Shown here: piece after piece, positions 50,088 to 61,102 of the stretch | Position numbering within the stretch: position 1 is the stretch's first letter | How the letters are laid out: every line of letters begins with the position of its first letter | NCBI GenBank assembly: GCA_022828125.1 | Contig: JAJEJD010000012.1 | Location: 257,309-321,308 of the forward strand | DNA: 64,000 nt | Origin: a bacterium | Lineage (GTDB): Bacteria > UBA8248 | Direction of reading: 5' to 3' | The notes under the pieces: generated by a model | What the model saw: the letters and a program-made list of their open reading frames with translations, nothing else | Databases searched by the model: none | What the model was told of the DNA's origin: nothing | Position numbers and translations under genes: made by a program

Positions 50088-51308
50088 CTACTTCGCGCCC
50101 GCCAGTTCCTTGAACTCGTCCATCGTGAGGAGGCGATGGAGGCTCAGGGATTTTTCCTTCACGTCCATCAGGAGCGCCATCTTCTCTTCCTCGGACGCCG
50201 TGATGCCCAGCTGCTCCAGGAACAGGTTGATGGAATCGATGCCGCTTCCCTTGCCGATGACGGGCTCGGGTTCGCTCTGGCCGACGAGGCCGGCGCGGAA
50301 GGGCACGAGTTCGGTCGGGAAGTCCTTCTCGCAGTTCTTGAGCCAGCTCACGATGATGCCGCTCTCGATGTCGTAGAGGTTGTCGCCCACGACGCAGCGG
50401 TTTGGCGCCAGGCTGATGCGCCCGCACTCCTGCACGAGGCGCGAGACCTCGGTGAACTTCTCCGTCTTCAAGCCCATATCCACGTCGTACATGGTGAGCA
50501 TCGCCAGGGCCAGCTCCTCATACGCCGCGTTGCCCGCGCGCTCGCCGATGCCGCTCACGGAAGTCTGCGCCACCTGGCAGCCCTCGGCCATCGCCATCAA
50601 CGTATTCGCCACGCCCATCCCGTAGTCGTCGTGGAAGTGGGGCTCGAAAGGTTCGTCCGGGAAGACCTCGCGCATCTTCTTGATGACGTAGGGCACGGTG
50701 TGGGGGCTGAGCACGCCGAACGTATCCACGATCGCCAGCGCGTCCATGTGGCCCTCGGTCGCCACTTTCTTTAACAGGCCCAGCACCCAGTCGAGCGGGG
50801 CGCGGGAGAAGTCGATGGGGAAGAACACGGTGTAGAGGCCGCATTCCTTCGCCACCTGGGTAGCCTTGACGGAGGTGTCGATGGCCTTGTCGAGCTCCCA
50901 CTTGTAGGCGCGCTCGATCATGTGCGTGGAACTCGGCACCTCCATGACGACGCCCTTGACGCCCGTGTCGGCGGAGCGCTTCACGTCGTCCGCCATGCAG
51001 CGCGCGAAGCTGAAGACTTCCGTATCCGTGCCTTCGAGGCGCTTGACGATCTCGCGGATCGCCGCCTCATCCGACGGCGAGACCACCGGCATGCCGGCCT
51101 CGATGCGGTGCACGCCCGTCTCGGCGAGGGCTTCGGCGATGCGGATCTTCTCGTCCTTGTTGAACATGACGCCCGCCTGCTGCTCCCCGTCCCGGAGCGT
51201 CACGTCGTGGATCTTGGGGTTGGGGTCGAAATTGATATCGGAGGTCACCTCGCCCTCGAAGTTCCACGGGCTGGTGAACCACATATCGGTGTTCCAGGGT
51301 TCGCTCAT
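50088..51308 (-). CDS. DRE-TIM metallolyase family (HMG-CoA lyase / isopropylmalate synthase-like)
   Basis: 406 aa. Motif KIHDVTLRDGEQQAGVMF supplies the Arg-Asp pair; the metal-binding His pair is in EPHFHDDYGMG, and the Asn lies in GNAAYEEL. There is no LeuA regulatory domain. An acidic C-terminal helical extension of about 110 residues follows. Could catalyse aldol-type synthesis or cleavage of a 2-oxo or 3-hydroxy acid, with or without CoA. It follows the M24 gene with a 114-base gap and ends at a strong hairpin, so these two are the core of the GntR-controlled unit. Confidence 0.88.
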   Translation of the reverse strand: MSEPWNTDMWFTSPWNFEGEVTSDINFDPNPKIHDVTLRDGEQQAGVMFNKDEKIRIAEALAETGVHRIEAGMPVVSPSDEAAIREIVKRLEGTDTEVFSFARCMADDVKRSADTGVKGVVMEVPSSTHMIERAYKWELDKAIDTSVKATQVAKECGLYTVFFPIDFSRAPLDWVLGLLKKVATEGHMDALAIVDTFGVLSPHTVPYVIKKMREVFPDEPFEPHFHDDYGMGVANTLMAMAEGCQVAQTSVSGIGERAGNAAYEELALAMLTMYDVDMGLKTEKFTEVSRLVQECGRISLAPNRCVVGDNLYDIESGIIVSWLKNCEKDFPTELVPFRAGLVGQSEPEPVIGKGSGIDSINLFLEQLGITASEEEKMALLMDVKEKSLSLHRLLTMDEFKELAGAK

Positions 51309-51422: not shown

Positions 51423-52772
51423 CTATTCGGGCAGCTCGAAGCGGGGCTCGCCGCGCGACTTCGCCGAGAAGTCGAAGTAGGGCGAATCCTCGATGCACTC
51501 GTCGTAGTGCGAGGAGCCCGTGAAGACGACGGGGCCGTCGGGGCCGACGAGTACGTTCTCTTCCAGGCGCACGGTCTGGGGAAGCCCCGGATGCCCTGCG
51601 AACGTCTCGATGGCGAAGTACATGTTCTCCTTGATCTCGACCGGGTAATCCAGGCTGTAGGCGCGGCTGATCCACATGCCCTCGTAGAGGTCGAGGCCGA
51701 TGGAGTGCGCGAACTGCTGGAGCGTCACCGTGCCGTACTTGTCGTCGGCGTAGACGGGGAACTGCTCGGCAACGTCTTTCGACGTCTTGCCCGGCACGAG
51801 CTGGGTCATGCCCGCGTACATCGTGTCGTAGACCTCTCTGTAGAGCTCTTTTTCCTTCTTCGTCCAGCCGCCGCCGCATTTGAAGCAGCGCACGTAATCG
51901 ACGAAGTAGCCGCCGGGGCCGATGGCGTTGATGTCGACGACGACGAGGTCGCCGTCCCTGATCATCTTGTCGGTGTGCCAGCGGCGGTAGGGGCTGGTGT
52001 TCCCGCCCGAGGCGACGATGATGTCGTAGACGAAGTCGAAGCCCTCTTCATAGAGCAGGTTGTTGACCCACGCGGTGAGGTCGCACTCGCGGATGCCGGG
52101 CTTGAGCCACTCGTTCCTGATCTTCCACATGCAGGTGTCGCCGATGGTCGAGCTAATCTTCAGGCACTCGATCTCCTCGGGCGTCTTGATGACGCGCGCC
52201 TCGCTCATCGCCGGCCACGCGTTCACCAGGTTCACGCCCTTCTCGGTGAAGGCGCTGTAGGCCTGCATGTCCATGATGTCGATGCCGATCCGGCCGTTGA
52301 GCGGAATGTTGTTCTCCTTGAGAACGTCGATGACCGAATCCGCCATGCGGTTCACCATCATCTGCTCGGCGGTCTCGGACCACTTCCAGGTGATGGCGGG
52401 GCGGATGTTCCCCTCGAGCCAGGGCGCGTCGATCTTGGCGCACTCATAGTCCGAACCCGCCGTCTCGAAGAGCACCGGCGTGTCCGCTCCCCGGCAGAGC
52501 ACGGCGTAGCGGATGAAGATGTTGTTCTTCCAGTTGCCCTGGAAGACCGACGCGGTGTAGCGGATGTTCTCGCCCTTGTACATGATGATGGCGTCCATGT
52601 CGTGCTTTTCCATCATCGCCTTGGCGCGGGCGAGCCGATCTTTGCGCATCTGGTCGAAGTCGACACGGCGCTGCCAGTCACTGCCCGTCTGGCTGAAGAC
52701 GCGCCGGGGGGACTGGTAGTGCTCTCTCTGCAGAAAGTCCATCGGCATGCCCTGTTTGCTCATTTCCACCAT
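51423..52772 (-). CDS. M24 family metalloenzyme (aminopeptidase P/creatinase-type)
   Basis: 449 aa. N-terminal creatinase-like domain (AMMEKHDMDAIIMYKGENIR), then the pita-bread domain with the full two-metal ligand set: VVVDINAIG (Asp), YFVDYVRCF (Asp), FAHSIGLDLYEG (His), AIETFAGHPG (Glu) and RLEENVLVG (Glu). All ligands present means a dinuclear enzyme is possible. M24 relatives include Xaa-Pro peptidases and non-peptidases such as creatinase and the DMSP lyase DddP; this one is not close enough by eye to assign. ATG 52772 follows AGGAGG. It is the first gene after the GntR regulator. Confidence 0.85.
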   Translation of the reverse strand: MVEMSKQGMPMDFLQREHYQSPRRVFSQTGSDWQRRVDFDQMRKDRLARAKAMMEKHDMDAIIMYKGENIRYTASVFQGNWKNNIFIRYAVLCRGADTPVLFETAGSDYECAKIDAPWLEGNIRPAITWKWSETAEQMMVNRMADSVIDVLKENNIPLNGRIGIDIMDMQAYSAFTEKGVNLVNAWPAMSEARVIKTPEEIECLKISSTIGDTCMWKIRNEWLKPGIRECDLTAWVNNLLYEEGFDFVYDIIVASGGNTSPYRRWHTDKMIRDGDLVVVDINAIGPGGYFVDYVRCFKCGGGWTKKEKELYREVYDTMYAGMTQLVPGKTSKDVAEQFPVYADDKYGTVTLQQFAHSIGLDLYEGMWISRAYSLDYPVEIKENMYFAIETFAGHPGLPQTVRLEENVLVGPDGPVVFTGSSHYDECIEDSPYFDFSAKSRGEPRFELPE

Positions 52773-53781: not shown

Positions 53782-53955
53782 TGTTGGAAAAGTCATTGCC
53801 AAAGGAGCAACCCCCCCTACCCCCCCTTGTCAGGGGGGTAAGAAAGAGCAAACCCTCCACCACAGCGGCGAGGGGCGTCGCCTTTTTTTACCCCCCTGAC
53901 AAGGGGGGGTAGGGGGGGTTGCCTTTATCCCCTGACAAGAGAGGCTTTTCCAACA
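53782..53955. repeat. Composite element with covarying borders, holding C/G-run copy D
   Basis: Left border TGTTGGAAAAGTC (53782-53794), right border GGCTTTTCCAACA (53943-53955). Both ends carry the same change (GG for GA) relative to other copies, so pairing is kept. Inside is a C/G-run element at 53807-53924 whose middle matches copy C in inverted orientation. It occupies most of the gap between the regulator and the next operon. Confidence 0.8.
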
Positions 53956-53976: not shown

Positions 53977-54006
53977 TTGCCGCTCTTATCTTGAAGGGCG
54001 TATAAT
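53977..54006 (+). promoter_or_regulatory. Sigma70-type promoter of the sugar cluster
   Basis: TTGCCG (53977-53982), 18-base spacer, then a perfect TATAAT (54001-54006). The first codon is at 54055, giving a leader of about 40 bases. It directly follows the repeat element. Confidence 0.7.
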
Positions 54007-54054: not shown

Positions 54055-54906
54055 TTGGCACGCGACTACGGCCTCTCCGCGCACCTGTTCGCCTATGAAT
54101 CTCTCCGCTTCGAGCACTTAAAAGAGGCGGCCGACGCCGGTTTCTCGAAAATCGAACTGTGGGCGATGACGCCCAATTTCGACGCGGGCGATGAAGGCAA
54201 GTTACAGGCTCTCAAGGGCTGGATGGCGGACCTCTCCCTCACGACATCCACCTTCCATGCGCCTTTTTACGCCGACCTCGACGAGGCGAGACAAGGACGC
54301 TGGCTCTCCCTCGCCGCCCCCGACGCCGGTGCGCGCGAGGCGGCCATCGAGAAAACAATCCAAGCCCTGCGCGCCTTCCGCCCCCTGGGCGCGAGAATCG
54401 CCGTGCTCCACCCGAGCGCGCCGGGCAAGGCGGGGGACGGGGACACATACGAGGCGCTGGAGGAGAGCATCACGCACCTCATACCCTTGGCTGAGGAGAC
54501 CGACGCCGTCCTTGCACTCGAAAACATCCCCTCCGCCCTGGGCTGCGCGGAGCCGCTCGCCGATTTCGTCTCCCGCATCGATCACCCGAGGCTCAGAATC
54601 TGCATCGACACCGGCCACGCCCTCATCACGGAGGGGGAAAACACCCAAAACGCCATCGAGCGGCTCGCGCCCATGTGCATCGCGGCGCATCTGCACGACA
54701 ACGACGGGCGAAACGACGCGCACCTCATCCCCGGCGAGGGCGCGTTCGAGTGGCCCTCTTTCTTCGCTGCGCTCGACGCCCGAGGCTACTCGGGGACGCT
54801 CGCGCTCGAACTCAGAAGAAAAGACGAGCCTTACGCCGAGACGCTGGCCGCCGCGGCGCGCGCCATGAAGACGCTCACTCCACATATCAAGCCGAGTCCC
54901 GCATGA
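54055..54906 (+). CDS. Sugar phosphate isomerase/epimerase family (xylose-isomerase-like TIM barrel)
   Basis: 283 aa. LSAHLFAYESLRFEHLKEAA opening, metal-site segments ALENIPSALG (Glu), ICIDTGHAL (Asp, His), AAHLHDNDGR (His) and LALELRRK (Glu). This is the IolE/endonuclease-IV-like barrel. TTG 54055 follows GAAGGAAAT. Its ATGA overlap with the next gene shows translational coupling. First gene of the seven-gene cluster; it may epimerise or isomerise the sugar that the kinase uses. Confidence 0.87.
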   Translation: MARDYGLSAHLFAYESLRFEHLKEAADAGFSKIELWAMTPNFDAGDEGKLQALKGWMADLSLTTSTFHAPFYADLDEARQGRWLSLAAPDAGAREAAIEKTIQALRAFRPLGARIAVLHPSAPGKAGDGDTYEALEESITHLIPLAEETDAVLALENIPSALGCAEPLADFVSRIDHPRLRICIDTGHALITEGENTQNAIERLAPMCIAAHLHDNDGRNDAHLIPGEGAFEWPSFFAALDARGYSGTLALELRRKDEPYAETLAAAARAMKTLTPHIKPSPA

Positions 54907-55919
54907 AGGCGAACTTCGCGGAGCAGACGCACGAGCGCCTGAAAACACTGGCGCAGGATTATTTCGGCGCGGGCGTCTCTTCGCTCACGCCGCTTGCCGG
55001 CGACGCTTCGACGCGCGACTACGTACGCCTCACTCACCCTGGCGGCGCGCGGCCGAGTTCGGTCGGCATGATCATGCCCGAGCCCTTCACGAAAGAGACG
55101 CTCCCCTTCATCGACGTGTGCGCGCATTTTAGTGAGATCGGCGTCAGGGTCCCTCAGATTTTCGCGGTGGACGAGGAGTCGGGCGTGATCCTCCTGGAAG
55201 ACTGCGGCGATGAATCGCTCGAAGACGCTTGGCGGGGCGGGGGATGGGAGGAAGTCAGGCCGCACTACGACGCCGCGATGGAGATGATGACCCTCATGCA
55301 GGAAGCGCCGACCTCGCCCGCAAGCGGGAGAGTTGCGCTGGCGCGGCGTTTCGACGCGGAATTTTTCACGAACGAACTCCACCACACGCGCAAATACGCC
55401 TTCGAGAGCCTCCTGGGGATGAAAACCGATGAGCGCGCGCTGGATGCGGCGTTCCGCGAATTGTGCGATGAAATCTGCCGGATTCCCTTCCGCCTCACGC
55501 ACCGCGACTACCACAGCAGGAACCTGATGGTGCTGGATGAAGCGGTGTTCGCCATCGATTTTCAGGACGCGCGCATGGGGCCGGCCACGTATGATCCGGC
55601 CTCCCTCATCTTCGACAGCTACGTCGATTTGGGGGCCGGCGCGCGGGAATACCTCATCGACCGCTACTGGGAGACTTGCGGCCAACGCCTCTTCTCGGAT
55701 AAAGAAGAATACGAACGCGCCTTGCGCGGGACAGCCATACAACGAAACCTGAAGGCCATCGGCACGTTCGCCTATCAGAAGGCGGCCCGCGGGGCGGAGC
55801 GCTATCTGGCGAGCATTCCGCATACCGTCCGGATGGTGCAGGAGCATTTCGAAAAAAGGAGGGACTTGGGGCCTCTTCATGCTTCGCTCAAGCCTTTCCT
55901 CGACGCGCTTCCCCAATAA
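54903..55919 (+). CDS. Aminoglycoside-phosphotransferase-fold kinase, AmgK-like
   Basis: 338 aa. N lobe has GDASTRDYVRLTHPGGARPSS and VILLEDCGDESL; the catalytic loop RLTHRDYHSRNLMVLD and metal motif AIDFQDARMGPATYDPAS are the AmgK pattern. AmgK phosphorylates N-acetylmuramate or GlcNAc at the anomeric carbon in cell-wall recycling, then MurU makes the UDP sugar. No MurU gene is adjacent. ATG 54903 overlaps the upstream stop. NagZ at the end of the cluster supports an amino-sugar role. Confidence 0.88.
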   Translation: MKANFAEQTHERLKTLAQDYFGAGVSSLTPLAGDASTRDYVRLTHPGGARPSSVGMIMPEPFTKETLPFIDVCAHFSEIGVRVPQIFAVDEESGVILLEDCGDESLEDAWRGGGWEEVRPHYDAAMEMMTLMQEAPTSPASGRVALARRFDAEFFTNELHHTRKYAFESLLGMKTDERALDAAFRELCDEICRIPFRLTHRDYHSRNLMVLDEAVFAIDFQDARMGPATYDPASLIFDSYVDLGAGAREYLIDRYWETCGQRLFSDKEEYERALRGTAIQRNLKAIGTFAYQKAARGAERYLASIPHTVRMVQEHFEKRRDLGPLHASLKPFLDALPQ

Positions 55920-55934
55920 AGGAGTCATCCCCTT

Positions 55935-56528
55935 TTGGATTTCCTGAAAAATACATTCCTCACGTCGGTGGAGCTTTGTCTCTACGACTTTCTGCACACA
56001 GAAGAAATACCGCCGAGCGAGGCGAGAATCGAGGTGGAGCACATCATCCTCGAAGCCGCCTCGGAGAATCGCCACCTCATTTCCGACGTTCAGGGCGAAA
56101 GCATGACGGCGAGGCGCTTCGAGCGGGGCGAGAAGTGCTTCGTCGCGCTCGAAGACGGCAAGGCGGTGAGCTACATCTGGGGAGCGCGCGGCGTGGTGGG
56201 CGTGGAGGAGATCGACAAGGCCGTGAAGGCTGGACCTAAGGAAATCTATCTCTACGACGCCTTCACGCTGGAGCCCTGGCGGGGGCGGAACCTCTACCCC
56301 GCCGTGCTCAGGCGCGCGCTCGAATACGCCGAGGGGCTGGGCCTCACGCGCTCTCTCATCTTCGTGGAGGCGAGCAACACGGCTTCGAGGCGCGGCGTGG
56401 ACAAGGCGGGCTTCATCCAGTTTCAGACGCTCTACCACAACCGGTTTTTCGTCTTCAGCCGCTCGAACCTCTCGGACCCCCTGGAGGGACACCCGACGGC
56501 CACGTTCGTAGGTCTTGAGTTCGCGTAG
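55935..56528 (+). CDS. GNAT family N-acetyltransferase
   Basis: 197 aa. The acetyl-CoA pyrophosphate loop is LEPWRGRNLYPAVLRRALEYA, near the usual Q/RxxGxG/A; beta-5 follows as SLIFVEASNTAS and RRGVDKAGFIQF. The N-terminal half (EIPPSEARIEVEHIILEAA) is unlike standard GNATs. TTG 55935 after AAGGAG. Could acetylate an amino sugar or a sugar-linked amine made by the deacetylase in this cluster. Confidence 0.75.
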   Translation: MDFLKNTFLTSVELCLYDFLHTEEIPPSEARIEVEHIILEAASENRHLISDVQGESMTARRFERGEKCFVALEDGKAVSYIWGARGVVGVEEIDKAVKAGPKEIYLYDAFTLEPWRGRNLYPAVLRRALEYAEGLGLTRSLIFVEASNTASRRGVDKAGFIQFQTLYHNRFFVFSRSNLSDPLEGHPTATFVGLEFA

Positions 56529-56578
56529 CGGCGGAATCAACGCGCGCCCACGGGCGCGGTGGATGCGAAGGAATCCAG

Positions 56579-57598
56579 ATGTCGCAAAGTTCATGCTCCT
56601 CGTTGCAGATAGAAGCCTTCACGTCTCCCGAGGTGTTCAAAGAGCTCGAATCCGAGTGGCGCGCGCTGATGGCCCGCTCCGCCCACGCGCATCCTTTCTA
56701 CGACCCCGCGTGGCACGCCGCGTGGTGGCGCAATTTCGGCGCGGGCGAACTGCGCGTCTACGCCCTGCGCGATGAGAGCGGCGCGCTGGCGGGCGTGGCG
56801 CCCTTCGTTCTGAGCGAGGGCGGGCGGCTGCGCCTGACGGGCGGGGACGATCTCTCCGATTACCTGGACATCATCGCCGCAGACGGTGCGCACCTCGCCT
56901 GCTGGCGGGCGGTTCTCGCCGCCCTGGATGAGCCGGGCGCGCCCGATTGGCGTGAACTCTCCCTGCGCGGAATTCCCGAAGCCTCCCCCACGGTCGCGGC
57001 GATAGAGGAGTTGGCGAGCGGGGCGGCCTCGGTGACAGAAGAAGAGGTCTGCCCCGTCATCGCGCTTCCCGACTCGTGGGATGAATACACCGGGATGCTC
57101 GCGCCGCGGGACGAGCGCGACCTGAGGCGCAAGATTCGCAAGGCCAACATGGAGGCGGGGCTGGAATACGAGCGGACGGAATCGGCGGACGCCCTCGCCT
57201 CCGATCTGGAGGACTTCATCGCCCTCCATGCGCTGAGCCAGCCGGAAAAGGCGGATTTCTGGAACGCCGACAGGAGGGCCTTTTTCGGTGACGTGACCAA
57301 GGCGATGCTCGAACTCGGCTGTCTGGACTTGAGCATCATGCGGGTGGACGGGCATCCCGTCGCGGCCAATCTCTCCTTCGATTACAGCGACAGGATATAT
57401 CTCTACAACTCGGGCTTCGACCCGGTGGAGCACGAACTGAGCGGGGGTCTGGTGCTGCTCGCCCACAACGTGGAAGAAGCGATTCAGGCGGGGCGCACGA
57501 GCTTCGACCTCTTGCGGGGCGATGAGGCCTACAAATACCGCTTCGGCGCGCAGGATGAGCGCGTGATGCGCGTGCGTATCGAGAGGAGCAGCGAATGA
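56579..57598 (+). CDS. CelD/BcsL-type GNAT-fold protein (FemAB-like)
   Basis: 339 aa with two GNAT-like halves. Typical features: HPFYDPAWHAAWWRNFGAGE near the start, LRRKIRKANMEAG before the catalytic half, then MRVDGHPVAANLSFDY and a C-terminal SFDLLRGDEAYKYRFG, the hallmark of this family. Members are annotated as cellulose or polysaccharide acetyltransferases; FemAB relatives add amino acids from aminoacyl-tRNA. The stop overlaps the glycosyltransferase start by 4 bases. Confidence 0.83.
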   Translation: MSQSSCSSLQIEAFTSPEVFKELESEWRALMARSAHAHPFYDPAWHAAWWRNFGAGELRVYALRDESGALAGVAPFVLSEGGRLRLTGGDDLSDYLDIIAADGAHLACWRAVLAALDEPGAPDWRELSLRGIPEASPTVAAIEELASGAASVTEEEVCPVIALPDSWDEYTGMLAPRDERDLRRKIRKANMEAGLEYERTESADALASDLEDFIALHALSQPEKADFWNADRRAFFGDVTKAMLELGCLDLSIMRVDGHPVAANLSFDYSDRIYLYNSGFDPVEHELSGGLVLLAHNVEEAIQAGRTSFDLLRGDEAYKYRFGAQDERVMRVRIERSSE

Positions 57599-58899
57599 GC
57601 GCAGAAGCGGCCCGTCTCGCCATCCTCTCCATGCACACCGACCCCCTGGCTCCCCTGGGAGGAGACTTCACGGGCGGCATGAACGTCTACGCCCGCGAGG
57701 TCGCAAAGGCCCTCGCAAGCCTCGGCGTCGTTGCGGACGTCTTCACCCGACTGGAATCAGACACCTCCGCCAGAGAGGTCCCCATCGCGGCGGGGGCGCG
57801 CCTCATCCGGGTCGAGGCGGGACCCAGGGAAAGGCTCGACAAGGACGCGCAAGTCGAACACGCCGACGCCTTCGCGCGGGGCATCGCAGCGTTTGCGGAG
57901 AAAGACGGGACGCATTATGACGGCGTATCCGCCCACTACTGGCTCTCGGGCCTTGCGGGAGAGACGCTCGCCAAAACCTGGGGCGTTCCCCTCGCCCTCC
58001 GTTTCCACACCCTGGCCGCGCTCAAAAACGACGCCCTGCCTGAAGACACCAGACGTGAGTCGGATATGCGGCTGGCGAGCGAACCCCGGCTTGCACAGAC
58101 GGCAGATGCGATTCTGGCCTCATCACCCGCCGAGGCGCGCGCAATCAGCGAAATATCGGGCGGGTCGGAAGTCCACGTCGTCCCCTGCGGCGTGGACCTG
58201 GAGACGTTCAGGCCTCATCCAAAGGCCGAGGCGCGCGCGCGGCTGGGCCTCAAGCCCGACCCCGCATACATCCTTAGCGTGGGCCGCATCGAGCGCGTGA
58301 AGGGTCTCGACCGCCTGATAAAGGCCTTCGCCCTCATGCGCAAAGAGCGCCCGGAACTCGATGCGCGTCTTCTGCATTTAGGCGGCGAGATAAAAGATGG
58401 CGCGGTGAGAACCGGAGAAAGCTGTCGCGCAGCGGATTTCGCCTCCCCCGCGCAGGCGGCGGAGGTCGCGCGTCTGGAGGAATTAGCGCAAAGGCTCGGC
58501 GTGGCGGATCGAATTATCTTCCTGGGCGCCAAGCCGCAGGAGGCGTTGCCGCTTTATTATTCTGCTGCCGACCTCTTCGCCCTGCCCTCGCGCTATGAGA
58601 GTTTCGGCATGACGGCTGTCGAGGCGACCGCGTGCGGTGTGCCGACGCTGGCCTTCGACGTGGGGGGTCTCTCCCAGGCGGTGAGTGAGGGCAAAAGCGG
58701 CCACCTCATCGCGGACGGCGATATCACCGCCTACGCGCGGAAGATGATGGAGATGCTGGAAACCCCTCGCGAAAACCCTGACCGCCAAGCTGTCAATTGG
58801 GCGGAATCGTTCGCCTGGAGGCGGATTGCCGAGGCGGAACTCGATATCTGGGCGCGCCTGCGAGATACGGCTGCGCTCTCATCACCACACGCTTCATAG
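57595..58899 (+). CDS. GT4 glycosyltransferase, MshA-like
   Basis: 434 aa GT-B fold. MHTDPLAPLGGDFTGGMNVY and the downstream SAHYWLSGLAGETLA and FHTLAALKNDAL closely follow the pattern of MshA (GlcNAc transfer to inositol 1-phosphate) and sucrose-type enzymes. Donor site: ILSVGRIERVKGLDRLIKAF and the EX7E region around LPSRYESFGMTAVEA. Followed 18 bases later by a PIG-L deacetylase, the same order of reactions as MshA then MshB. The acceptor is unknown. Confidence 0.9.
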   Translation: MSAEAARLAILSMHTDPLAPLGGDFTGGMNVYAREVAKALASLGVVADVFTRLESDTSAREVPIAAGARLIRVEAGPRERLDKDAQVEHADAFARGIAAFAEKDGTHYDGVSAHYWLSGLAGETLAKTWGVPLALRFHTLAALKNDALPEDTRRESDMRLASEPRLAQTADAILASSPAEARAISEISGGSEVHVVPCGVDLETFRPHPKAEARARLGLKPDPAYILSVGRIERVKGLDRLIKAFALMRKERPELDARLLHLGGEIKDGAVRTGESCRAADFASPAQAAEVARLEELAQRLGVADRIIFLGAKPQEALPLYYSAADLFALPSRYESFGMTAVEATACGVPTLAFDVGGLSQAVSEGKSGHLIADGDITAYARKMMEMLETPRENPDRQAVNWAESFAWRRIAEAELDIWARLRDTAALSSPHAS

Positions 58900-58917
58900 A
58901 CACGGAAGGAAACGCCA

Positions 58918-59610
58918 GTGAGCCAGGAGGAATTCAGAAACATACTCGTCGTCGTCGCCCACCCCGACGACGCGGAACTGTCCTCGGGGGGCAGCATCGC
59001 CCGCTGGACGCGGGAGGGCGCGACCGTGCGAACGGTCGTCTGCACGAACGGGGACAAGGGAACGAAGGATGACATCAGCCCCTTCGACCTCGCCAGGACC
59101 CGCGAGGCGGAACAACTCGAAGCCTCCCGCATCCTGGGCGTCAGGGAGACCCTGTTCCTGCGCCACCGCGACGGGGAACTCGAGGACACGCGCGCGTTCA
59201 GGAACCAGATCGCCTTCCTGATTCGCCACTTCAAACCCGACACCATCCTCACCCACGACCCCTGGCGAACCTACTACCAGCACCCCGACCACCAGGCCAT
59301 CGGCCACGCCACGTTCAAGGCGGTGGTCTACGCGCGGGATCACCATTTCCTGCCCGAACTCACCTACGCCGGCATCGGCGCGCACCACACGAAGAACCTG
59401 CTCTTTCTCAACACGCGCGAACCGAATTTCTTCGTGGACATCACCGAGACGTTCGATACGAAAGTCCGCGCGGTGTGCGCGCACAAGTGCCAGATCAAAA
59501 ACCCCGAAGCGTTCGAGAAGCGCACGCGCCAGCGGCTCGAAGACGCAGGCCGCGCGGCAGGCTTCCCGGTAGCGGAGTCGTTCGTCATCACGCGGATGCG
59601 CGAAGGCTAG
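58918..59610 (+). CDS. PIG-L/LmbE family zinc deacetylase (MshB/BshB-like)
   Basis: 230 aa. Zinc motif VVVAHPDDAELSSGGSIARW (His, Asp-Asp) and the second His in YYQHPDHQAIG. RTREAEQLEASRILGV is also typical. These enzymes remove N-acetyl from GlcNAc linked to inositol, malate or other groups. GTG 58918 follows GGAAGGAAA. Sits between the MshA-like glycosyltransferase and NagZ. Confidence 0.93.
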   Translation: MSQEEFRNILVVVAHPDDAELSSGGSIARWTREGATVRTVVCTNGDKGTKDDISPFDLARTREAEQLEASRILGVRETLFLRHRDGELEDTRAFRNQIAFLIRHFKPDTILTHDPWRTYYQHPDHQAIGHATFKAVVYARDHHFLPELTYAGIGAHHTKNLLFLNTREPNFFVDITETFDTKVRAVCAHKCQIKNPEAFEKRTRQRLEDAGRAAGFPVAESFVITRMREG

Positions 59611-59617
59611 GGCGCGC

Positions 59618-60802
59618 ATGAGCGAGGAGACGCCGGAGACCAGGGCCGGCCGGCGCATCATGGCCGGTTTCGAGGGAACCGCCCCCCCGGCCTCTCTCCT
59701 CGCTCGCGTCCGCGCGGGCAGGGTCGGCGGCGTCATTCTTTTCCACAGAAACATCGAAAACGCCCGCCAGACGGGGGCGCTCATCGCCTCCTTGCAAGAA
59801 GCCGCCCTCGCCTCCCCGCTCGAAGCTCCCCTGCTCGTGGGAATCGACCAGGAGGGCGGGCGCGTGAGCAGGCTCTCCGATGACTTCACCATCTTCCCGG
59901 CGGCGCGGGGTTTCGGGGACGCGGGCGAACCCGCCCTAGCCAGGGAAGCCGCACGTATCACAGGGGTGGAACTAGAGGCGGTCGGTGTGAATATGAACTT
60001 CGCACCCGTCGCCGACATCCTCACGAACCCCGAATGCGCCGTCATCGGCGATCGCGCCTTTGGCGAATCATCCCGAGTCGTCGCTCAAATGGGTGAGGCC
60101 GCAACCCAAGGCTTACAGGAAACGGGCGTCGCCGCGTGCGCCAAGCATTTCCCCGGCATAGGCGACATGGCCCCCGACCCCCACGAGGTGCTGCCGACCT
60201 CACGCCTCACGCTCGACGATCTGAGAGCGCGCGAACTGGAGCCGTTCCGGCATCTCATCCGCCGCACGCCTCCCGCCTGTGTCATGGTCGCCCACGCGGT
60301 TTTCGAGGCGATAGACAAAACGACTCCTGCGAGCCTCTCTCCTGTCTTTCTTCAGGAAATACTGCGCGGAGAACTCGGTTTCCGGGGCGTCGCCGTCACC
60401 GACGATCTGGACATGGGCGCGATAGATGACCCCGCAGAGGCGGCGCTTCAAAGCATCCTCGCCGGGGCCGACATCGCCCTCATCTGCCACTCGGAAGACG
60501 CGCAGGAGGCCGCCGTCGATGCGGTCGCGGAGGCCATCAGAGACGAACGCCTCCCCCCCGAACAGGAGGAAGCGTCATCGGACCGGATACGCAGATTGAA
60601 AGAGAGCTACTGCCGCCCGAATTGGCGCAAAGAGATGCTCGAAGTTATCGGGTGTGCGGAGCATCGGGCTGCGAGGGAGAGAATCCTCGCGGCACTGGAG
60701 GGGGCCGGACAGTCAGGGGACAAAGGCAACCCCCCCTACCCCCCCTTGTCAGGGGGGTATGAAAGAGCCCCGATGAACGAGCAAGATAAACTCCCCCCTT
60801 GA
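59618..60802 (+). CDS. nagZ: Beta-N-acetylhexosaminidase (GH3, NagZ-like) with repeat-encoded C-terminus
   Basis: 394 aa. GH3 motifs: VGGVILFHRNIEN, LVGIDQEGGRVSRL, KHFPGIGDMAPDPHEVLP (the catalytic His loop), VMVAHAVFEAID and VTDDLDMGAI (the nucleophile Asp). No clear signal peptide, fitting cytoplasmic peptidoglycan recycling. The last 25-30 residues, including NPPYPPLSGGYERA, are coded by a C/G-run repeat (60726-60759) and are not homologous to the family. The enzyme core seems complete without them. Confidence 0.9.
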   Translation: MSEETPETRAGRRIMAGFEGTAPPASLLARVRAGRVGGVILFHRNIENARQTGALIASLQEAALASPLEAPLLVGIDQEGGRVSRLSDDFTIFPAARGFGDAGEPALAREAARITGVELEAVGVNMNFAPVADILTNPECAVIGDRAFGESSRVVAQMGEAATQGLQETGVAACAKHFPGIGDMAPDPHEVLPTSRLTLDDLRARELEPFRHLIRRTPPACVMVAHAVFEAIDKTTPASLSPVFLQEILRGELGFRGVAVTDDLDMGAIDDPAEAALQSILAGADIALICHSEDAQEAAVDAVAEAIRDERLPPEQEEASSDRIRRLKESYCRPNWRKEMLEVIGCAEHRAARERILAALEGAGQSGDKGNPPYPPLSGGYERAPMNEQDKLPP

Positions 60803-61102
60803 GGGGGAGTCGAAGAGCTAAGGGCGTAAGCCCGCAAGCGATTCGGTGGGGGGTATAATTCGGAATGGCGATAAAACGAGATTCACCCCCCACCGATTCA
60901 GCCTTCGCACAAACCGCTCGGCTTCATCGACTCCCCCTCAAGGGGGGAGTGAAATTCAAAAACTTGCACTCAACCAAAATCACTCCACGGGACTTTTTCA
61001 ACAACCTCTTGTAAGGGGGCAAGAAAAAACAAAAGCCCCTCTACCGGCGGCGGGCGTCGCCTTTTTTTACCCCCCTGTCAAGGGGGGGTAGGGGGGGTTG
61101 GT
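60726..61102. repeat. C/G-run element split by a 160-bp family element
   Basis: Left half of a C/G-run element (60726-60759), a full 160-bp family copy (60791-60950, same orientation as 47422-47580), a right border GACTTTTTCAACA (60991-61003) and the right half of the C/G-run element (61005-61102). The order shows one repeat inserted into or recombined within another. Covers the 311-base gap after nagZ and the last 75 bases of nagZ. Confidence 0.8.

Follow-up and report, generated by a model that had tools for sequence, protein, structure and literature searches.

Two pathways for low-molecular-weight thiols are the closest described systems for the locus considered here: the mycothiol pathway of actinobacteria (Ino1-MshA-MshB-MshC-MshD) and the bacillithiol pathway (BshA-BshB-BshC), in which a GT4 glycosyltransferase and a PIG-L deacetylase are followed by the addition of an amino acid. 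The genes mshA-D have been reported only from Actinobacteria (PMC6282198), and almost no mycothiol genes have been found in archaea (PMC7278568). We analysed a seven-gene operon at positions 54055-60802 of a window (the whole stretch of 64,000 nucleotides; contig JAJEJD010000012.1 of assembly GCA_022828125.1, positions 257,309 to 321,308) that is part of a 3.9 Mb metagenome-assembled genome (MAG) from a bacterium of the GTDB lineage UBA8248, whose family relatives are labelled Nitrospinota or Candidatus Tectomicrobia MAGs in their records. Domain searches gave the gene order as TIM barrel, APH-fold kinase, single-domain GNAT (GNAT1), PF13480 protein, GT4 glycosyltransferase, PIG-L deacetylase and NagZ. 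With slightly better than even odds (roughly 0.5), we propose that this operon makes a mycothiol-like thiol, a FemX-like protein of family PF13480 replacing MshC and probably drawing on Cys-tRNA.

The locus and its genome share with the mycothiol pathway an MshA-like glycosyltransferase with the MshA acceptor residues, a PIG-L protein, Ino1 and a GNAT, as well as MshD-like and TIGR03084 partners in relatives; it differs in that MshC is missing and a FemX-fold PF13480 protein is found instead, in that the genes are clustered, and in that the host is not an actinobacterium. The bacillithiol pathway has the same enzyme order, and the PIG-L protein scores best with BshB models, but the glycosyltransferase reaches only 98 bits with the BshA model (cut-off 273.7) versus 316 bits with MshA, and no match to PF10079 (BshC) was found in the window genome.

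The sequence evidence supports an MshA-like glycosyltransferase, as the earlier note had suggested, with an MshA-type acceptor site. Its top NCBIfam model is MshA (TIGR03449), the next models scoring around 100 bits, and its closest PDB match is CgMshA. Residues H109, Y110, T134, R154 and M24 (C. glutamicum MshA numbering) are kept in all 34 glycosyltransferases found with the conserved core described below, K78 is kept in most of them, and the place of N25 is occupied by N or S. We take K78, Y110, T134 and R154 to be the residues that hold inositol phosphate in MshA. Sucrose-phosphate synthase (SPS; Tll1590) belongs to the same GT4 group and has the phosphate-binding residues in common, but it departs from MshA at acceptor positions, with Q in the place of M24, N in that of H109 and S in that of T134. 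The enzyme contacts fructose via Ala48 and Gln51 (PMC7264703), and the Gln51 position is Met in MshA and in every core glycosyltransferase. An unrooted tree put the SPS-type sequences on a separate branch (97/94) and joined the MshA proteins of actinobacteria to two core glycosyltransferases from Chloroflexi (97/93). A placement with sucrose or lipopolysaccharide enzymes, which would have spoken against the earlier assignment, was thus not obtained for the sucrose enzymes; those of lipopolysaccharide synthesis are set aside by model score only. A Burkholderia multivorans plasmid (L189:5995-12397) carries a GT4 gene, 34% identical and with SPS-type residues, and has genes for a PIG-L deacetylase and another glycosyltransferase nearby.

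The supply of inositol and the missing ligase were followed through the genome. The earlier note had proposed a search for Ino1, and the window genome does encode one (PF01658 over cut-off; best NCBIfam model mycothiol_INO1 at 435 bits, below its cut-off of 638), as does every complete member of the family. Overall, 33 of the 38 core genomes encode Ino1, compared with 156 of the 366 genomes sampled; among the 21 core genomes with a linked glycosyltransferase, 20 do (p ~2e-7 by genome). MshC did not exceed its cut-off in any of the 38 core genomes, where the best matches had the scores of ordinary cysteinyl-tRNA synthetases (CysRS); the window genome has one CysRS-like protein only, at 291 bits versus a cut-off of 485. 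The absence of MshC and BshC, noted earlier for the locus, therefore holds genome-wide.

The earlier note had listed GNATs in the operon. Of the two, GNAT1 stands as a single GNAT, with a predicted structure at pLDDT 93 and a fold search that returned GNATs, MshD among them at ranks 12 and 15, but the other is the PF13480 protein, whose likely role as the ligase had been missed. A sequence search found no significant PDB relative for either protein, while the fold search did yield relatives. The AlphaFold model of the PF13480 protein (pLDDT 94.4) shows the double-GNAT FemX fold; its top Foldseek matches are Weissella FemX structures (E 2e-13, TM 0.67), including peptidyl-RNA complexes, followed by LPG-synthase domains and by Sba18/Sbb17, peptide synthases that depend on aminoacyl-tRNA, in structures with streptothrisamine bound. 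Across 39 core PF13480 proteins, K319 does not vary. The catalytic lysine is K305 in FemX and K329 in DhpH-C, and K319, which lies at a similar C-terminal place, may correspond to K305. The protein thus resembles FemX/FemABX and the Orf11/Sba18 transferases in fold, and it differs from them in sequence, where no similarity to the solved FemX chains could be detected. Orf11, a FemX-like Gly-tRNA-dependent enzyme, aminoacylates an amino-sugar intermediate (PMC12945691), and chemistry of this type, placing an amino acid onto the 2-amino group of glucosaminyl-inositol, is what the proposed pathway would need.

Three of the genes, those for the PF13480 protein, the MshA-like glycosyltransferase and the PIG-L deacetylase, form a core that recurs outside the host family. 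It was sought by a PIG-L profile scan followed by comparison of the surrounding DNA; the scan by itself is unspecific, returning matches at 31-36% identity without the core, and PF13480 matches below ~250 bits in the sample of 366 genomes were not counted, those inspected lying in loci of exopolysaccharide (EPS) type. Outside the family, 25 loci were found to hold all three genes, with titles naming Chloroflexi/Dehalococcoidia, Anaerolineae, Deltaproteobacteria, Desulfobacteraceae, Aminicenantes, Nitrospiraceae, Nitrospinota, Spirochaetota and one Bathyarchaeota MAG; as these loci come from MAGs, an isolated case, the archaeon for example, may reflect a binning error. GNAT1 is linked to the core in part of these genomes (L082, L174-L178), while the TIM barrel, the AmgK-like kinase and NagZ were not found with it in loci outside the family. 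A fusion of GNAT1 to the PF13480 protein in L177 was considered and rejected, the two matches lying in different frames. Directly upstream of the core, a radical SAM/SPASM gene of AhbD/NirJ-like type was seen in a deltaproteobacterial and a Nitrospiraceae locus (L044:2299-3465 and L070:3064-4191).

Other genes recur beside the core, and by their sequence families they point to thiol metabolism. Of 49 loci examined, 19 have an MshD-like double GNAT of ~310 residues, usually adjoining PIG-L; MshD is both its best curated model and its best PDB relative. A GloB-like metallohydrolase of 213 residues occurs in 20 of the 49; its subfamily exceeds 210 bits in 16 of the 366 sampled genomes, all 16 of them core-bearing (the next score is 171 bits), and at the family level four of four fall within the seven core families (p ~2e-7). 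The window genome has an unlinked orthologue (C15:555846). In two genomes, G041 and G336, PF13480 and MshD-like genes stand beside a member of TIGR03084 (345 and 339 bits; cut-off 248), a family of the mycothiol-dependent maleylpyruvate-isomerase type, and G041 also has PIG-L there. These TIGR03084 genes (L172:6292-7086 and L173:3527-4315) also adjoin acyl-CoA carboxylase-like and enoyl-CoA-hydratase-like genes, in genomes that have neither Ino1 nor MshC.

Within the host family the operon order is kept in all relatives with enough contig, between GntR/M24 genes and YchF, so that the conserved synteny on which the earlier interpretation depended is present throughout, and its conservation is far beyond chance. 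Identities across the operon are 78-98% in the genus and ~37-69% across the family (PIG-L 93-98% and 65-69%; glycosyltransferase and PF13480 protein, full-length matches, 79-94% and ~37-60%). The strongly matching glycosyltransferase is present in one copy per genome, in a fixed gene order. The adjoining pair of HMGL/isopropylmalate-synthase-like (50088-51308, minus strand) and M24 peptidase/DddP-like (51423-52772, minus strand) genes is more conserved than the operon, with 98-100% identity in the genus and ~81-97% in the family.

Taken as a route, Ino1, encoded elsewhere in the genome, would make inositol-1-phosphate, to which the MshA-like enzyme would add N-acetylglucosamine (GlcNAc) from UDP-GlcNAc. 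After dephosphorylation by an unlinked phosphatase, PIG-L would remove the acetyl group to give glucosaminyl-inositol; the PF13480 protein would then, in place of MshC, load the freed 2-amino group with an amino acid, for which cysteine carried by Cys-tRNA is the likeliest choice. The cysteine would be acylated by a GNAT, which is GNAT1 in this operon and the MshD-like double GNAT in loci of other phyla. Conjugates of the thiol would be used by the unlinked GloB-like hydrolase, and NagZ and the AmgK-like kinase may, as a guess, salvage GlcNAc for the donor pool. Sequence evidence for transfer and deacetylation appears strong; for ligation, a predicted fold and gene association are suggestive, and only the partner genes point to cysteine as the amino acid, while we infer the use of a charged tRNA, the part in salvage and the nature of the product. 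As far as its sequences tell, the route would operate in the manner of mycothiol synthesis, yet it does not belong to that pathway, because MshC was not found and the equivalog cut-offs of MshA, MshB and MshD are not reached. The thiol-type reading of the earlier note has stronger backing than that note could draw on, from the MshA-type glycosyltransferase, the synteny, Ino1 and the MshD-like, GloB-like and TIGR03084 partners of the core elsewhere.

Several observations weigh against a thiol product. The glycosyltransferase stays below the MshA cut-off of 462 bits, as do those of other phyla (276-413 bits), and PIG-L exceeds no cut-off (BshB1 106 bits, MshB 58 bits). The operon of the window encodes one GNAT, GNAT1, rather than the MshD-like protein, and the MshD-like double GNATs elsewhere score ~80-104 bits versus a cut-off of 163. 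An unlinked double GNAT of the window genome (L132:5389-6333, G000:C21), kept across the family and, in relatives, with an fxsA-like membrane gene as its neighbour, was tried as the missing MshD and rejected, being at best weakly MshD-like. The enrichment of Ino1 is marginal by family (p ~0.05); G041 and G336 have neither Ino1 nor a linked glycosyltransferase, and may be variants or keep the latter elsewhere, and one core genome (G049) lacks Ino1 and is the only one of 29 with BshC. Nothing in the sequence of the PF13480 protein appears to point to cysteine, and aminoacyl transfer is not shown by the fold alone. Because the FemX fold is general to PF13480 proteins, the case for aminoacylation rests on context.

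The same enzyme order would serve a core that makes an N-aminoacyl or N-acyl glucosaminyl-inositol without a thiol, such as a compatible solute, a signalling molecule or a glycolipid headgroup, with the PF13480 protein adding another amino acid or an acyl group. FemX-type enzymes use several amino acids (PMC12945691), and in the sampled genomes PF13480 proteins are also encoded away from the core, in loci of surface-polysaccharide type. Against this stand the recurrent MshD-like, GloB-like and TIGR03084 partners, which are typical of thiol metabolism, and no membrane or export gene was seen travelling with the core; we consider a non-thiol product rather unlikely. Assembly of a surface polysaccharide or EPS would account for GT4, PF13480 and PIG-L families, all common in EPS loci, and other GT4 genes are present in the window genome; yet the operon has no polymerase, flippase or priming transferase, its glycosyltransferase groups with MshA rather than SPS, and the single strongly matching copy in a fixed order does not fit, which makes this explanation very improbable.

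Peptidoglycan or amino-sugar recycling, in which NagZ, the AmgK-like kinase, the deacetylase and the GNATs would process GlcNAc or N-acetylmuramic acid, was the other direction given by the earlier note. Here NagZ exceeds its model cut-off (PRK05337 at 242.5 bits versus 207) and has KHFPG and DPH motifs, the kinase has the APH fold with its catalytic motifs intact, and these genes are conserved together in the family. The kinase is, however, only distantly AmgK-like, at 105.6 bits versus a cut-off of 550, and the core loci of other phyla have neither NagZ nor this kinase; a recycling operon would also leave the MshA-type acceptor site unexplained. We regard it as improbable, and the kinase, the TIM barrel and NagZ appear to be lineage-specific additions, because they were not found with the core outside the family.

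The features of the operon are listed in Table 1. All seven open reading frames lie on the plus strand without internal stops, and the tight coupling described earlier was confirmed: ATGA-type overlaps at 54903, where the ATG of the kinase lies within the TIM-barrel stop, and at 57595, with gaps of 15, 50, 18 and 7 nt elsewhere. Domain searches agree with the earlier PIG-L and NagZ assignments, and a single sigma-70-like site precedes the first gene, in line with the one promoter proposed before. No NCBIfam model exceeded its cut-off for the TIM barrel, the first gene, which the heading of the earlier note does not name.

Table 1. Features of the operon and its upstream region in the window.
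Feature	Position	Strand	Basis
Sigma-70-like promoter (TTGCCG-18-TATAAT)	53977-54006	+	Consensus scan only; ends ~49 nt before first gene
Xylose-isomerase-like TIM barrel (PF01261), sugar/inosose isomerase-like; putative lineage-specific accessory	54055-54906	+	Pfam 138.8 bits
APH-fold small-molecule kinase, distantly AmgK-like	54903-55919	+	PF01636; start ATG 54903; HRDYHSRN and DFQD motifs intact
GNAT1, single-domain GNAT; candidate N-acetyl/acyltransferase for the last step	55935-56528	+	PF00583
PF13480 protein of FemX fold; proposed ligase that would add an amino acid (cysteine) to the freed amino group	56579-57598	+	Pfam, AlphaFold, Foldseek
MshA-like GT4 glycosyltransferase; proposed UDP-GlcNAc:inositol-1-phosphate transferase	57595-58899	+	TIGR03449, acceptor residues, tree
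PIG-L deacetylase (putative MshB/BshB role)	58918-59610	+	PF02585; AHPDDAE and HPDH motifs intact
NagZ-type GH3 beta-N-acetylhexosaminidase; putative accessory	59618-60802	+	PRK05337

On either side of the operon (53882-53918 and 61061-61097) lies a GC-rich dispersed repeat (CCCCCCTGACAAGGGGGGGTAGGGGGGG) with a predicted hairpin, whose 14-mers occur ~10 times in the window. The C-terminal tail of NagZ (60645-60802; NPPYPPLSGGYERAP) looks less like part of an enzyme than like a dispersed repeat that is read through.

In the open literature on mycothiol in Dehalococcoidia, Chloroflexi/Chloroflexota and Deltaproteobacteria, a scope outside which most subscription papers fall, we found no description of the core. 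To our knowledge, the protective thiol of Dehalococcoidia, of many sulfate reducers and of the uncultured bacteria of the host family is a largely open question. We tentatively suggest, though the odds are against it, a widespread pathway in which a FemX-type transferase loads cysteine from Cys-tRNA onto glucosaminyl-inositol, so that uncultured lineages outside the actinobacteria (Dehalococcoidia, Desulfobacterota, Tectomicrobia-like bacteria and perhaps an archaeon) would make mycothiol or a closely related compound. The three-gene core recurs in several unrelated phyla thought to be without mycothiol, and it offers candidates for the steps of mycothiol synthesis other than that of MshC, whose slot a FemX-like protein occupies; this makes for a concrete and testable proposal. 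If true, the cysteine-amide bond would have been reached in evolution by a second route, in which a charged tRNA is borrowed instead of a CysRS being remodelled, and the pathway would mean tRNA-dependent synthesis of a redox cofactor.

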